From Enterococcus malodoratus ATCC 43197 (GTDB lineage Bacteria > Bacillota > Bacilli > Lactobacillales > Enterococcaceae), in NCBI RefSeq assembly GCF_000407185.1, contig NZ_KE136483.1, positions 1-64,000 of the forward strand: a stretch of DNA of 64,000 bases, given 5' to 3'. Below, in pieces: positions 8,523 to 61,359 of this stretch. How positions within the stretch are numbered: position 1 is the first letter of the stretch; every line of letters starts with the position of its first letter. Under the pieces are notes generated by a model. It worked only from the letters and a program-made list of their open reading frames with translations, was not told where the DNA came from and did no database searches. The position numbers were made by a program, and so were the translations under genes.

Positions 8523-8760
8523 ACTTTGAATATTATTGCCCGGAAGAGGAGTAGTAGAAACGAACGCATCTCAGAGAGCGCACGGTGCTGAAAGTGTGCA
8601 TGCGGAACATTCGAACTTACCTTGGAGCATGATCAATCGATCCGGTTAAGGACCGTTACATCCTTTGAGGTCTGTCATGTGGCAGATGAAAATAGGTGGT
8701 ACCACGTTATTAACGTCCTATGAAAGTTTTTAGAGCTTTCGTAGGGCTTTTTTTCTTACC
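8523..8760 (+). promoter_or_regulatory. T-box leader for leuS
   Basis: A tRNA-sensing leader. The conserved T-box sequence AGGTGGTACCACG is at 8694-8706. Stem I runs from about 8535 to 8625 with GAGTAGTA on its 5' side and GAACTTACC on its 3' side, where the specifier is likely CTT (8616-8618), or possibly TTA one base later; both are leucine codons. The terminator CCTATGAAAG/CTTTCGTAGG plus seven T ends near 8750. Uncharged tRNA-Leu would favour the antiterminator and switch leuS on. Confidence 0.93.
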
Positions 8761-16781: not shown

Positions 16782-16814
16782 AAAGCCCAAGTCATTGCGA
16801 CTTGGGCTTTTTTT
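16782..16814 (+). terminator. Terminator after the LysM/Apf gene
   Basis: AAAGCCCAAGT pairs perfectly with ACTTGGGCTTT, followed by TTTT. Confidence 0.95.
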
Positions 16815-16816
16815 GT

Positions 16817-17216
16817 CAGTTCAACTTTTCGTAGTTTGTTTATTTTGAATGAGTTGGATATTAACTATTCTTCCCCAATAAATAGACAAGCCGTTTAGTT
16901 GAATGATATGCGTAGCGACAGACAAAATCATTTTTCCGTTTTTGGGAAAAATGATTCCCTTAATAGGAGTTAGCTGCGAGTTCCACTTTACTCTTTAGAG
17001 TAATTAGTGGAATCGTATGTCAACGATGATAAAAATTTGATTCAAATGTTCCTATTAATGGAGTTGTCTGCACTTTTCGCAGTTTATTTTGAATGAGATG
17101 AATCTTAACTATTTTTCCAAACTTAAATAGACAAGTCGTTTAGTTGAATGATATGCGTAACGACAGACAAAATCATTTTTACGTTTTTGGGAAAAATGAT
17201 TACTTAAATAAAAGGT
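16817..17216 (+). repeat. Intergenic paired-box/hairpin repeat, three units (locus A)
   Basis: Unit 1 has boxes TTCAACT (16820-16826) and AGTTGAA (16897-16903) and a 12-bp hairpin AATCATTTTTCC/GGAAAAATGATT (16926-16956). Unit 2 is a compact hairpin TTCCACT...AGTGGAA (16981-17012) with a second inner stem TTACTC/GAGTAA. Unit 3 (about 17070-17205) repeats most of unit 1, but its left box is degraded. No gene starts after it; the next gene is convergent. The rest of this 465-bp gap holds nothing else that I can see. Confidence 0.75.
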
Positions 17217-20954: not shown

Positions 20955-20989
20955 AGAAGCTGCGATGCAAATTTGCGTCGCAGCTTTTT
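20955..20989 (+). terminator. yheA terminator
   Basis: AAGCTGCGA pairs with TCGCAGCTT around TGCAAATTTGCG, followed by TTT. Confidence 0.85.
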
Positions 20990-21083
20990 GCATGTTCATT
21001 TTTTTGTGGGAAGTAAAGGAATAATTCCAAATCGATCTCATTTTTAGTAGATTTCAAAAAAATGATTTCTATAAAAAGAACTA

Positions 21084-21165
21084 TCTTACAAAAATCTTAC
21101 AAGACACGAATAAAAATGATAGATAAGAATAAATCGCAGTTTTTTCTTTAGAAAATTGCTATACT
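21084..21165 (+). promoter_or_regulatory. Direct repeats and promoter before the serine hydrolase gene
   Basis: TCTTACA occurs at 21084-21090 and again at 21095-21101, an 11-bp period typical of OmpR-type regulator sites. An extended -10, TGCTATACT, is at 21157-21165. The link to a regulator is inference. Confidence 0.4.
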
Positions 21166-30894: not shown

Positions 30895-31030
30895 GGCCAG
30901 TCCAACTTTTCTCAGACTGGTTAATTAGTGAAATAGAAAGTGCATCGAAATATCACGTAGTTGGATGGTACGCAGTATAAAGGTAAGCTGAAAAGAATAA
31001 ACACATTAATATGCATAAGGAGGAAATGAT
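30895..31030 (+). promoter_or_regulatory. Structured leader, single relative of the paired-box repeat (locus D)
   Basis: The left box TCCAACT (30901-30907) is complementary to AGTTGGA (30959-30965). The flanks CCAGT/CTTTTC and ATGGTACGCAG resemble those of the tandem repeats at 38746 and 55991. CCAGTC can also pair locally with GACTGG (30897-30920). Its function is unknown. Confidence 0.5.
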
Positions 31031-37999: not shown

Positions 38000-38130
38000 C
38001 AGAACCGTCGGGCTACAGCTACTCGGGCTGCCAAGGCCATTTTCGCAGCTATTATTGGGAGAAGATAGGTTACGTAATTAGGCTGAAAAGTTTTAAGAAA
38101 CTCTTGGGATGGTATACGACTTGAAAAATT
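38000..38130 (+). promoter_or_regulatory. Leader before the Nudix gene, distant relative of the paired-box repeat (locus E)
   Basis: It shares TTTTCGCAG (38040-38048) and ATGGTATACG (38109-38118) with repeat locus C. CCAAG (38031-38035) can pair with CTTGG (38103-38107). The pairing is shorter and less well placed than in the other loci. Confidence 0.4.
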
Positions 38131-38166
38131 AATTTCTTGATAGGAAAAAGGGGGAAAGGTGTCGTA

Positions 38167-38745
38167 ATGTTAGAGTATAAAGATTTTGAAGAGAAGACAA
38201 TTGAACGGAAAGAATTGTTTAAAGGAAAGATCATTGATGTTTATTTGGATGATGTCGCCTTGCCAATGGGCGGAACTGCTAAGAGGGAGTTAGTTTTCCA
38301 TCATGGGGGCGTTGGAATCATTCCCATCACTAAAGAAAATAAAATGATCATGGTCAAACAATTTCGGAAACCGCTAGAAAAGGTTGTCATGGAAATTCCT
38401 GCTGGAAAAATTGATCCCGGCGAAGGTCAGCATCCAGAAAAAACAGCGATGCGTGAATTAGAGGAAGAAACGGGCTATCGTACCGAAAAATTAACGTACA
38501 TAAATGAAATGTATTTATCGCCAGGATTTTCAAACGAGAAATTATACATTTACGCGGCGACCGATTTGGTCAAAGTTGAAAATCCGCGACCGCAAGATGA
38601 CGATGAGGTTTTAGAACTTTACGAGTTAACGATGGAAGAAGCAAAACAAGCGATCCAAGATGGATTGATTTGCGATGCGAAGACCATTTTCGCAGTAAAT
38701 TATTGGGAATTGCTGCAATTAAAAAATAAACAAGCCAATTCCTAA
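38167..38745 (+). CDS. Nudix hydrolase, ADP-ribose pyrophosphatase type
   Basis: Splits ADP-ribose or a similar nucleoside diphosphate derivative. The Nudix box is complete: GEGQHPEKTAMRELEEETGY around residue 87. The 192 residues and the N-terminal beta strands fit NudF/YqkG. A TTG at 38137 is in frame, but AAAGGTG (38156-38161) spaced 5 nt from ATG 38167 supports the later start. The order Nudix, MacP-like, Pfs matches the pneumococcal chromosome. Repeat locus B begins at the stop codon. Confidence 0.9.
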   Translation: MLEYKDFEEKTIERKELFKGKIIDVYLDDVALPMGGTAKRELVFHHGGVGIIPITKENKMIMVKQFRKPLEKVVMEIPAGKIDPGEGQHPEKTAMRELEEETGYRTEKLTYINEMYLSPGFSNEKLYIYAATDLVKVENPRPQDDDEVLELYELTMEEAKQAIQDGLICDAKTIFAVNYWELLQLKNKQANS

Positions 38746-39137
38746 AGGTTATCTATTTATACGGCATGAAAATCAGACTCATTTTTCCTCAAGAAAAATG
38801 AATACATTTATAAGAATAAGGATGTCAGTTCCTCTTTTAGTAGGATCATTGAATTGGATATCAAAATGTTCTGATTTGTCTAAAAACGTCAGGCAAAGTA
38901 TAGAGGAATGATATACGGCATGAAAATCAGACTTATTTTTCCTCAAGAAAAATGAATACATTTATAAGAATAAGGATGTCAGTTCCTCTTTTAGTAGGAT
39001 CATTGGATTGGATATCAAAATGTTCTGATTTGTTTAAAAACGTCAGGCAAAGTATAGAGGAATGATATACGGCATGAAAATCAGACTCATTTTTCCTCAA
39101 GAAAAATGAATACATTTATATGAATAAGGAGAGGATC
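38746..39137 (+). repeat. 154-bp tandem paired-box/hairpin repeat (locus B)
   Basis: Two full 154-bp copies differ at three positions only, and a third partial copy runs into the next gene. Each full copy has TTCCTCT (38829-38835; 38983-38989) complementary to AGAGGAA (38902-38908; 39056-39062). A hairpin CATTTTTC/GAAAAATG around CTCAA lies at 38780-38800 and recurs in each copy. In copy 2 the closing C becomes T, which keeps a G-U pair. The last copy ends in AAGGAG, the ribosome binding site of the gene at 39142. Confidence 0.85.
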
Positions 39138-39141
39138 ACGC

Positions 39142-39426
39142 ATGAGCCAATCACCCCTGGTGACGCGCAGCGAATTGCGAAAACGAAAAGAAGAGCAAGA
39201 GCGGTTGGCAGAGGAACAACGAAAAGCTGCTGAACGAACGTATGAAAAAAGAGAGAAAGAAATCAGTAACGTTTATCGTAAAGAATTAAAGAAGAATAAA
39301 CCAGTCACGAAGTCTCGCAGCAGTGAACGCGTGAAACAAAAAGAACGTGGTAGTATACTAAATAAGGCGATTATTTTTGTTCTATTACTTTTGATCGTGG
39401 TAATGTTAGCTGTATTCTTTATTTAG
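39142..39426 (+). CDS. macP: MacP-like small membrane protein, probable PBP2a activator
   Basis: A 94-residue protein with a very basic and acidic helical N-terminal part (about 10-70) and one C-terminal membrane segment (about 74-93). The short start with PLVT, the layout and the neighbourhood (Nudix before, mtnN after) match MacP of Streptococcus pneumoniae, a kinase-controlled activator of PBP2a. A PBP2a gene is present at 18334. The homology is inferred from architecture and gene order because direct similarity is low. AAGGAGAGG before the ATG comes from the end of repeat locus B. Confidence 0.72.
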   Translation: MSQSPLVTRSELRKRKEEQERLAEEQRKAAERTYEKREKEISNVYRKELKKNKPVTKSRSSERVKQKERGSILNKAIIFVLLLLIVVMLAVFFI

Positions 39427-51372: not shown

Positions 51373-51577
51373 AAAAAATGGAAAATTCCGTCGATGCCGT
51401 TATTCACCCGATAGTATTGATCCCGCAAAATCTAGCAGGTGGGTTCCATGGTCTAAGCATCGAACTACCAAATGAAAAGGCATGTTACCAACTTTGACAC
51501 AAGACGGATCCCAAGATATCAATAAAAATGTTCGGTCAACACTGAAATAGGCAACGCGCACATCACAGAATTTCCAT
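51373..51577 (-). ncRNA. Structured RNA, probably 6S RNA
   Basis: No ORF fits, but the minus strand has a promoter (TTGCGT, 17 bp, TATGAT). The expected RNA of about 203 nt begins with GGAAATTCTGTGATG and ends with CATCGACGGAATTTTCC followed by TTTTTT, and these ends pair as a long closing stem. Further in, GCC/GGC with TATT/AATA, ATTGAT/ATCAAT, and GGGATCC/GGAACCC extend a single rod with internal bubbles. Size, rod shape and closing stem fit 6S RNA, which binds and inhibits RNA polymerase. The identity is inference; the structure is visible in the sequence. Confidence 0.55.
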
Positions 51578-55990: not shown

Positions 55991-56219
55991 CCGTATGGAA
56001 TAATATACGGCTCGAGAATCCATATTTTCCCCTTAGGAAAATAAATCCTTAATACCGAGAAAGGATGCCAGTTCCACTTTTCGCAGAATAATTCAAACGA
56101 AGACCGCTCGATTTTAGTAAGAGAAAATAGATTTCAACTTGTTTAGTGGAATGGTATACGGCTCGAGAATCTATATTTTCCTCTTAGGAAAATAAATCCT
56201 TAATACCGAGAAAGGAGTT
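55991..56219 (+). repeat. Paired-box/hairpin repeat, two hairpin copies (locus C)
   Basis: The hairpin TATTTTCC/GGAAAATA occurs at 56023-56043 and again at 56174-56194, 151 bp apart, each followed by AAATCCTTAATACCGAGAAAGGA. Between them TTCCACT (56072-56078) is complementary to AGTGGAA (56145-56151), followed by TGGTATACGGCTCGAG. The first copy begins with the inverted pair CCGTAT/ATACGG. The last copy ends in AAAGGAG, the ribosome binding site of the exporter gene at 56224. Confidence 0.8.
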
Positions 56220-60308: not shown

Positions 60309-60411
60309 ATGAGTCGGATAAGGATAAATAGAATGAATGATAGACGCGGTGAAGGTCATAATTTTTTTTGAAAAGTGAAATCATGGCTAGGAACTAGGAG
60401 GGGCGAAAAAT

Positions 60412-61359
60412 ATGAAATGGAATGAAGTCAAAGTAACAACGGAAAGTGAGGCAGTTGAAGCTGTCTCAAATATTTTAATGGAAGCTGGCGCATCGGGTGT
60501 TGCGATCGAAGATGCCTTGGATTTTGAAAATTATCAAGAGGATCAATACGGCGAATTATTGGATAAGGAAACTTTTTCTAGCTTAGCTGAGGGAGCTGTC
60601 GTGATGGCCTATTTCCCAGAAACGATTTTCTTGCCGGAAATTTTACCGTTCATTAAAGCCAACATCACAAAATTACCGGAGTTCGGATTGAATATCGGGA
60701 AAAATATCGTGGAAGTAAGTGAAGTGGAAGAGAGCGACTGGGCGACCGCTTGGAAAAAATATTATCATCCGGTTCGTGTAACGCGCTATTTAACGATCGT
60801 TCCCAGCTGGGAAAAATACGAGGGGCAGCATGAGGATGAAAAAATCATTACTCTAGATCCGGGAATGGCCTTTGGAACTGGCACACATCCAACGACAAAT
60901 CTAACCTTGCAGGCATTGGAAACTGTTTTGCGAGGCGGTGAAACGGTCTTAGATGTGGGAACAGGTTCTGGTGTGTTGAGTATCGCCAGCTCTATTTATG
61001 GAGCGAAAGATATTTATGCATATGATTTGGACGAAGTAGCGGTTCGTTCGGCACAAGAAAACGTCGATCTAAATGCCAATACTGAAAATATTCATGTGTC
61101 CGCGAATGATTTGTTAGTCGGTGTGGAGCAAGAGGCCGATGTGATCGTCGCCAATATTTTAGCGGATATCATTGTTTTGATGGTCGAAGACGCTTGGCGT
61201 TTATTGAAACCAGAAGGGACATTGATTGTTTCAGGGATCATCGAAGACAAAAAAGATATGGTGCTGGAAGAAATGTATGCACAAGGTTTTGAAGTCGATC
61301 GAATCTTCCAACAAAAGGATTGGTTTGCGATTATTTTGAAGAAACCAGAGGAAGATTAA
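60412..61359 (+). CDS. prmA: Ribosomal protein L11 methyltransferase
   Basis: Methylates lysines and the N-terminus of ribosomal protein L11 using SAM. In 315 residues the N-terminal substrate domain (1-110) precedes the methyltransferase fold with DVGTGSGVLSIA near residue 182 and NILADI near 247. AGGAGG lies before ATG 60412. The rsmE gene begins 1 bp after its stop, so they form one unit. Confidence 0.96.
   Translation: MKWNEVKVTTESEAVEAVSNILMEAGASGVAIEDALDFENYQEDQYGELLDKETFSSLAEGAVVMAYFPETIFLPEILPFIKANITKLPEFGLNIGKNIVEVSEVEESDWATAWKKYYHPVRVTRYLTIVPSWEKYEGQHEDEKIITLDPGMAFGTGTHPTTNLTLQALETVLRGGETVLDVGTGSGVLSIASSIYGAKDIYAYDLDEVAVRSAQENVDLNANTENIHVSANDLLVGVEQEADVIVANILADIIVLMVEDAWRLLKPEGTLIVSGIIEDKKDMVLEEMYAQGFEVDRIFQQKDWFAIILKKPEED

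Follow-up and report, generated by a model that had tools for sequence, protein, structure and literature searches.

A folded, probably mobile intergenic repeat of Enterococcaceae at Shine-Dalgarno sequences and behind terminators

Introduction

Dispersed folded repeats are common in bacteria, and how they reach harmless sites is mostly unclear. Palindromic elements derived from IS200/IS605, and those of the REP/RAYT type, have hairpins with a conserved bulge, make no target duplication and enter a short, one-sided target in a fixed orientation; group IIC introns insert behind terminators, and attC sites fold as single strands with extrahelical bases and a variable loop. In the parts of the published accounts used here, BOX, RUP and SPRITE of Streptococcus pneumoniae are described as small dispersed folded repeats that are thought to be parasitic (PMC3049150), and Efa-1 of Enterococcus faecalis as a 163-bp intergenic sequence present in 65 copies, 18 of them complete, that forms two adjacent stem-loops (Petrillo et al. 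2008, PMC2267715).

The repeat reported here forms a tandem array (array B, at locus B) between a NUDIX hydrolase gene and macP, within a 64,000-nt stretch of DNA (the window) from an Enterococcus genome of the avium group. Like Efa-1 as described in those parts of its account, it is enterococcal, intergenic, about 150–160 bp long and present in many copies with an adjacent stem-loop pair, and it may be kin of Efa-1, with which it is compared by description alone; the same parts hold no position relative to Shine-Dalgarno sequences (SDs) or terminators, no tandem units ending in an SD and no count of covarying pairs (PMC2267715), and the words Shine-Dalgarno and leader are absent from the text of that paper. 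With BOX, RUP and SPRITE, on the parts of their account used here, it shares the lack of a clear relation to the function of neighbouring genes and the insertion of units into one another, whereas a nucleotide-exact position at an SD or T-run is not part of that description; SPRITE itself resembles a terminator, whereas the enterococcal units sit behind one (PMC3049150). Relative to known folded repeats, any novelty would lie in the placement at SDs and terminators, the long covarying stem and the existence of two subfamilies, none of which appears in the portions of PMC2267715, PMC3049150 and PMC10969869 that we draw on, and a search of the open-access literature turned up, Efa-1 apart, no SD-placed enterococcal repeat.

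Array B and other copies in the window

Array B consists of a truncated first unit, which lacks box 1 and the loop, and two full units, the second of which runs into macP (Table 1). The initial annotation had recognized two 154-nt units and a partial third; the full units stand, but the partial copy is the first of the array and not the last. In another register, the same DNA reads as two 154-nt copies at 38758–38911 and 38912–39065 (98% alike) followed by a 65-nt copy at 39066–39130. Each full unit carries the box TTCCTCT and, as had been noted, its complement AGAGGAA, at a separation of 66 nt, and the sole hairpin change within the array (CATTTTTC to TATTTTTC) does keep a G-T (that is, G-U) pair. 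The last unit ends in AAGGA, which together with one further base forms the SD of macP; the junction of array and SD that had been noted is thereby borne out. The different but complementary boxes reported elsewhere in the window were likewise found, with TTCAACT/AGTTGAA at 16820, TCCAACT/AGTTGGA at 30901 and TTCCACT/AGTGGAA at 56072.

Two weaker matches complete the inventory. One at 60315–60397 (sequence model, E 2.8e-4), before the gene at 60412, is probably a worn leader-class remnant; the other, at 20989–21085 (E 0.018), lies directly behind a terminator, and a relative (L196) has a unit (E 3.6e-9) at the matching place.

Table 1. Repeat units and associated features in the window; leader-class units end in the SD of a downstream gene and trailer-class units start behind a T-run. 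R1 and R2 are the covariance and sequence-only models.
Feature	Position	Strand	Basis or remark
Trailer-class unit directly behind terminator T-run	16814..16974	+	Site unoccupied in relatives L165, L170, L175
Short stem (TGCGA-G-TTCCACT with AGTGGAATCGTA) between two trailer units; remnant of short-loop unit	16975..17014	+	By eye, motif list
Partial trailer-class unit	17065..17215	+	R1 search
Leader-class unit with reduced second hairpin, ending in SD of phosphohexomutase-like gene	30895..31021	+	Gene matches below curated cut-offs
Weak remnant before NUDIX gene	38029..38151	+	R1 E 1.8e-4; R2 E 3e-5
NUDIX hydrolase gene, upstream of array B	38137..38745	+	PF00293, E 1.7e-18
Truncated first unit, array B (hairpin and tail only)	38746..38822	+	R1 match 38676-38821
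Second hairpin (TCATTTTTC/GAAAAATGA), truncated unit	38779..38801	+	
Full unit 1, array B	38823..38976	+	R1 match 38823-38975, E 1.1e-20
5′ arm of covarying stem, unit 1 (TGTCA, bulged G, TTCCTCT)	38823..38835	+	
3′ arm of covarying stem, unit 1 (AGAGGAA TGATA)	38902..38913	+	
Second hairpin, unit 1	38933..38955	+	
Full unit 2, array B; end is SD of macP	38977..39130	+	R1 match 38977-39129, E 9.2e-21
5′ arm of covarying stem, unit 2	38977..38989	+	
3′ arm of covarying stem, unit 2	39056..39067	+	
Second hairpin, unit 2	39087..39109	+	
SD AAGGAG of macP, supplied by unit end joined to gene	39126..39131	+	
macP, led by array B	39142..39426	+	NF038277, 85.6 bits vs cut-off 45
5′-truncated leader-class unit	55999..56065	+	Sequence-model match
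Leader-class unit ending in SD of MFS (DHA2-type) transporter gene	56066..56218	+	R1 match

Size and distribution of the family

The earlier observation is confirmed, and the repeat belongs to a family larger than the one first described. A covariance model (R1) built from 35 units finds at least 139 matches (E<=0.01) in the 4.62-Mb host genome, a lower bound given that 150 of 4871 candidates were scored. These form 91 arrays, 58 of them single and 33 with two to five units, and the matches are 140–169 nt long in 82 of 139 cases and 100–119 nt long in 34. The search of related genomes with a covariance model, which the initial annotation had proposed, found the family in all 20 genomes of the genus (E<=0.001). 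With stricter filters (E<=1e-4), 43 of 105 genomes and 6 of 17 genera of the Enterococcaceae match; outside the family, none of 23 genomes of the order does (E<=0.001). Among the loci listed from genera g9, g10, g11 and g14, all four genera have leader-type ends (AAGG-AG or a close variant ahead of a start codon), and g9 has trailer-type ends (TAGC) as well.

It is possible, although we lean against it, that the repeat is Efa-1 of E. faecalis in another species. Length, location and the double hairpin fit the description in the parts of that account used here (PMC2267715), and divergent members are present in g9, a genus of the same family that is putatively that of E. faecalis; however, each of the six g9 genomes that were searched yields between 1 and 13 matches, fewer than the 65 copies of Efa-1.

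A covarying stem and a second hairpin

The complementary boxes make up the inner portion of a stem of 12 bp, TGYCA-G-TTCNNCT with AGNNGAA-TGRTA, which has a bulged G (G in 96 of 99 units) and a G-T second pair (also 96 of 99) and encloses a loop of about 17–29 or 51–70 nt. Pairing was tested on matches to a sequence-only model (R2), so the search itself did not score pairing, with some bias left because units with more than one mismatch in the 7-nt boxes had been kept out of the R2 seed. The alignment took in 212 matches (150 of 160 plus 62 of 62), from which we removed 82 whose arms contained gaps or inserts and 31 that nearly duplicated others, leaving 99 units. Seven of the 12 pairs covary significantly in these, no shuffle out of 2000 reaching their pairing frequency (p 0.0005, the lowest value that the test can give); at the most variable one 93 of 99 units are paired where 42.9 would be expected, and T-A, A-T and C-G are about equally frequent there. 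Of the other five pairs, four are almost invariant and one is borderline (p 0.06). The classes taken singly behave alike, with six pairs significant among 36 trailer units (p 0.0005) and six among 28 leader units (p<=0.002), a leader count that is too low because the class label missed TAGG-type ends and left 35 of the 99 units unlabelled.

In the alignment from the host's own genome (145 distinct rows), likewise made with a sequence-only model, 95.8% of cells pair against 82.5% in shuffles, and the covariation score is 0.229 against 0.088, neither value being reached in 500 shuffles; eight pairs are changed on both sides against 6.1 (reached by 5 of 500). Sliding the partner along the alignment gives a score of at most 0.044. 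Judged from a list of its variants, the second hairpin also changes in pairs, as had been claimed: TCATTTTTC/GAAAAATGA, TTATTTTTC/GAAAAATAA, CTATTTTTC/GAAAAATAG, AACTTTTTCG/TGAAAAAGTT and others.

Paired changes could in principle be made without any selection on the fold, by template switching between the arms of a quasi-palindrome. Such correction would have both arms change together and would fit the near equality of three pair types at one position, yet it should also erase the bulged G and the G-T mismatch, both of which persist in nearly every unit, and we regard it as very improbable.

As RNA, two short-loop units fold as proposed (z -3.8 and -5.1), and as DNA they do so but for one or two end pairs (z -3.8 to -5.1 over RNA and DNA). 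The unit of locus B, folded alone as RNA, contains the long stem at a stability not above that of shuffles (z -0.6), and the long stem is missing from its best fold as single-stranded DNA. Over 1089 stem cells (second pair excluded), 20 G-U pairs stand beside 15 A-C mismatches, compared with 30 and 0 in the tRNAs of the window (20 of 25 genes parsed; Fisher p 1.6e-5 against the repeat stem), a small control in which ARAGORN may not report mismatched stems. Subject to that control, the near-equal counts are easier to reconcile with copies that decay once they have arrived than with an RNA that is maintained in working order where it lies.

Placement relative to genes

The arrays follow the orientation of their neighbours. 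With a simple ORF caller, the flanking genes of the 91 arrays are same/same in 69 cases, opposite/same in 16, same/opposite in 6 and opposite/opposite in none; that is, no array is antisense to both neighbours. The initial annotation had named two outcomes that would tell against it, namely loss of covariation in a wider alignment and hits scattered without relation to gene orientation, and it withstands both because covariation holds in the wider alignment and the matches follow gene orientation.

By rule, 52 of the 91 arrays end in the SD of the downstream gene (leader class), with the start codon 5–13 nt after the GG of the SD and most often at 10 nt (20 of 52), and 28 start directly behind a T-run (trailer class; 32 when shorter T-runs are counted). 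The 40 nt before trailer arrays fold at a mean of -17.7 kcal/mol, compared with -3.9 kcal/mol before leader arrays, a difference that marks terminators. Eleven arrays fall in neither rule class: in four (L074, L081, L082 and L083) a fold of equal strength precedes a shorter T-run, L031 has AAGGAG at its end, followed by an ATG that opens a short frame only, L093 lies within another unit's T-run, and L088, L024, L101, L103 and L114 fit neither the leader nor the trailer class.

The initial annotation favoured a regulatory leader that had been duplicated. A cis-acting RNA of this kind, in which the stem and hairpin of a 5′ UTR set stability, processing or translation, draws on the 52 arrays that end in an SD, on the well-formed RNA folds of the two short-loop units, on a locus B stem that appears as RNA and not as DNA, and on the G-U kept at position 2 of the stem. 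Against this, 28 to 32 arrays lie outside 5′ UTRs, behind terminators, and covariation is present in their stems too; G-U is hardly favoured over A-C, the locus B fold is no more stable than its shuffles, and SD accessibility across the 52 leaders is 0.53 compared with 0.50 when the upstream part is shuffled, which is no difference. No Rfam family reaches threshold, and the 23 downstream proteins scanned from the 52 leader arrays have no common pathway or function. We consider a leader RNA quite unlikely, although the leader class could have been kept for an effect on expression, which is a point against a mobile repeat.

Among these 23 proteins, Der, HisIE, RlmH, GlmU, Upp, Zwf, Ffh, Gnd, Rpe, SufB, a dTDP-glucose 4,6-dehydratase, MacP, an MFS transporter, an aquaporin-type channel, a BMC shell protein and a GntR regulator score above curated cut-offs; DNA polymerase I (its reading frame runs off the end of the locus), MenA, a phosphohexomutase, a PTS IIC subunit and an oxidoreductase score below them, and two have no family assigned. 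A known regulatory RNA or riboswitch was rejected, as the repeat loci of the window have no Rfam match at the gathering threshold (for locus B, the five matches with E up to 1 all lie far below the gathering score), as was a short reading frame in the leader spacer, which by eye is not conserved between copies.

Unoccupied sites and copy number

At efp the host genome reads GTAGAAGA, then one unit, then GGAGTG. Eight genomes (G001, G004, G006, G008, G013, G015, G018 and G019) have a short efp leader with the SD in place, the remaining genomes have longer or different leaders, and no unit was found at efp in the 80 named loci compared. Six efp leaders (L141, L142, L146, L148, L150 and L152, from G002, G012, G009, G017, G005 and G003, respectively) carry another short hairpin segment just before the SD, the tail of which resembles that of the repeat; it is perhaps a diverged form or a second repeat family that enters SDs.

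At macP, 14 of 20 genomes have, by eye, a short leader with the SD and no unit, one (G005) has units of its own and three (G018, G010 and G011) have remnants. A terminator T-run that holds a unit in L148 (G017) is whole in L139 and L151; between cydB and cydD, E. gilvus has no unit and E. raffinosus has either one truncated unit or a truncated unit plus two full ones. In L120 a trailer unit lies in the loop of a leader unit, where it splits the family motif CTTTTAGCA, a T-run (by eye). Target duplication amounts to 0–1 nt at the L148 terminator and at the L120 nested site and to 0–2 nt at efp, with exact ends uncertain by 1–2 nt because the empty sites come from other species.

Copy number differs between strains of E. 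raffinosus. By length, CX012922 has two units more between cydB and cydD than the other four records (two of these compared as sequence), F162_2 has one unit more behind cydC than CX012922 and HG-5, and the trpF-trpB interval holds three full units in CX012922 and F162_2 and two in HG-5 and Er676. These differences are gains and losses in tandem, not new insertions. The leader array of CX012922 at this last place (L261, 21055–21639), one truncated and three full units, lies inside the trp operon before trpB. Comparison of the host genome's own arrays with G012 contig 9 and other loci added just three usable pairs.

Trailer arrays behind terminators covary, the 23 downstream genes examined are unrelated and many relatives without a unit keep the same gene and SD, and paired change alone is therefore no argument for an RNA working in place, as it had been taken to be. 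Overall, the earlier interpretation is partly supported, with the small mobile repeat the better half of its guess.

Candidate mobilizers

Oriented insertion at a T-run or AGGA target to the left of the element, little or no duplication, end hairpins, and a bulge and G-T mismatch conserved in an otherwise covarying stem would all suit an element moved by a Y1 transposase (IS200/IS605 or RAYT). However, Y1_Tnp has no match in the host genome, where 5 of 14 control profiles matched, and although 12 of the 20 genomes of the genus have one, eight do not; four genomes without it (G000, G009, G010 and G011) nonetheless hold at least about 51 units each, and none of six Y1 loci checked has a clear unit (best E 0.057). 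With no such transposase in the host genome and no clear link across the genus, we rejected Y1 as a partner and hold this route to be unlikely. The repeat resembles IS200/IS605-derived elements in its subterminal hairpins and its little or no target duplication, although the long stem of locus B is not the best DNA fold, and it differs from these and from REP/RAYT in having two dissimilar hairpins and no Y1 transposase in the host genome.

A search for IS91-type Y2 transposases gave no match, as did its control, and is uninformative. Trailer placement behind terminators recalls group IIC introns, but no unit has an Rfam intron match, and a group II intron reverse transcriptase was set aside as mobilizer, given that the one intron found has no unit beside it. 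That intron (G000, C1:1349035–1349865, L351) encodes a 602-aa maturase and is the single one found in the genome. The repeat shares with MITEs its short length, dispersal and high copy number, but not a clear target site duplication (0–2 nt at most, judged from empty sites in other species). By eye, the trailer ends GCCAGTTC and GAACTAGC are almost inverted copies of each other across 8 bp, and the leader ends are less so.

No larger autonomous copy with a gene in its loop was recognized among 180 5′ arms. A partner lies within about 110 nt in 125 of these and farther away in three, and 52 have none; of the three farther partners, those at 178 and 226 nt are nested or adjacent units and that at 1015 nt (L236) looks like chance.

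Discussion

We suggest that the repeat is probably a non-autonomous mobile element of the Enterococcaceae, the fold of which matters for its spread and the leader subfamily of which restores the SD that it enters. A unit starts at TGYCAG and ends in TAGC or AGGA and comprises the 12-bp stem with its bulged G, a loop of about 17–70 nt, a spacer, an A/T-rich second hairpin and an A-rich tail. The empty sites in relatives show insertion into T-runs (mostly those of terminators in intergenic DNA) and into AGGA at SDs, always the same way round and duplicating few or no target bases. Upon entry, the leader subfamily would rebuild the SD close to the start codon, given that the leader unit itself ends in AGGA, and insertion should thus be nearly silent for the gene. 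Recombination among tandem copies may afterwards lengthen or shorten the arrays, and the folded strand, as single-stranded DNA or RNA, would be recognized by a putative mobilizing enzyme.

A more detailed version of this scenario, which we offer tentatively and would hesitate to adopt as a whole, has the two subfamilies tuned to two signals (the SD, which is rebuilt, and the terminator T-run), with the folded strand read by the putative enzyme and more than 100 insertions accommodated harmlessly between genes. The position of such a repeat is exact to the nucleotide and readable from the sequence, being either a rebuilt SD or the base that immediately follows a terminator. The repeat also cautions that an upstream region with strong covariation is not necessarily a regulatory RNA, and annotation would gain a class of repeat that changes the length of 5′ UTRs between strains in steps of about 150 nt.

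Other structured RNAs in the window

Apart from the repeat, the window holds a 5S rRNA gene with a dense tRNA cluster (1–2600), a SAM-III (SMK box) riboswitch (2468–2551), a T-box (8532–8723) and, on the minus strand, 6S RNA (RF00013, 73.7 bits; 51381–51574).
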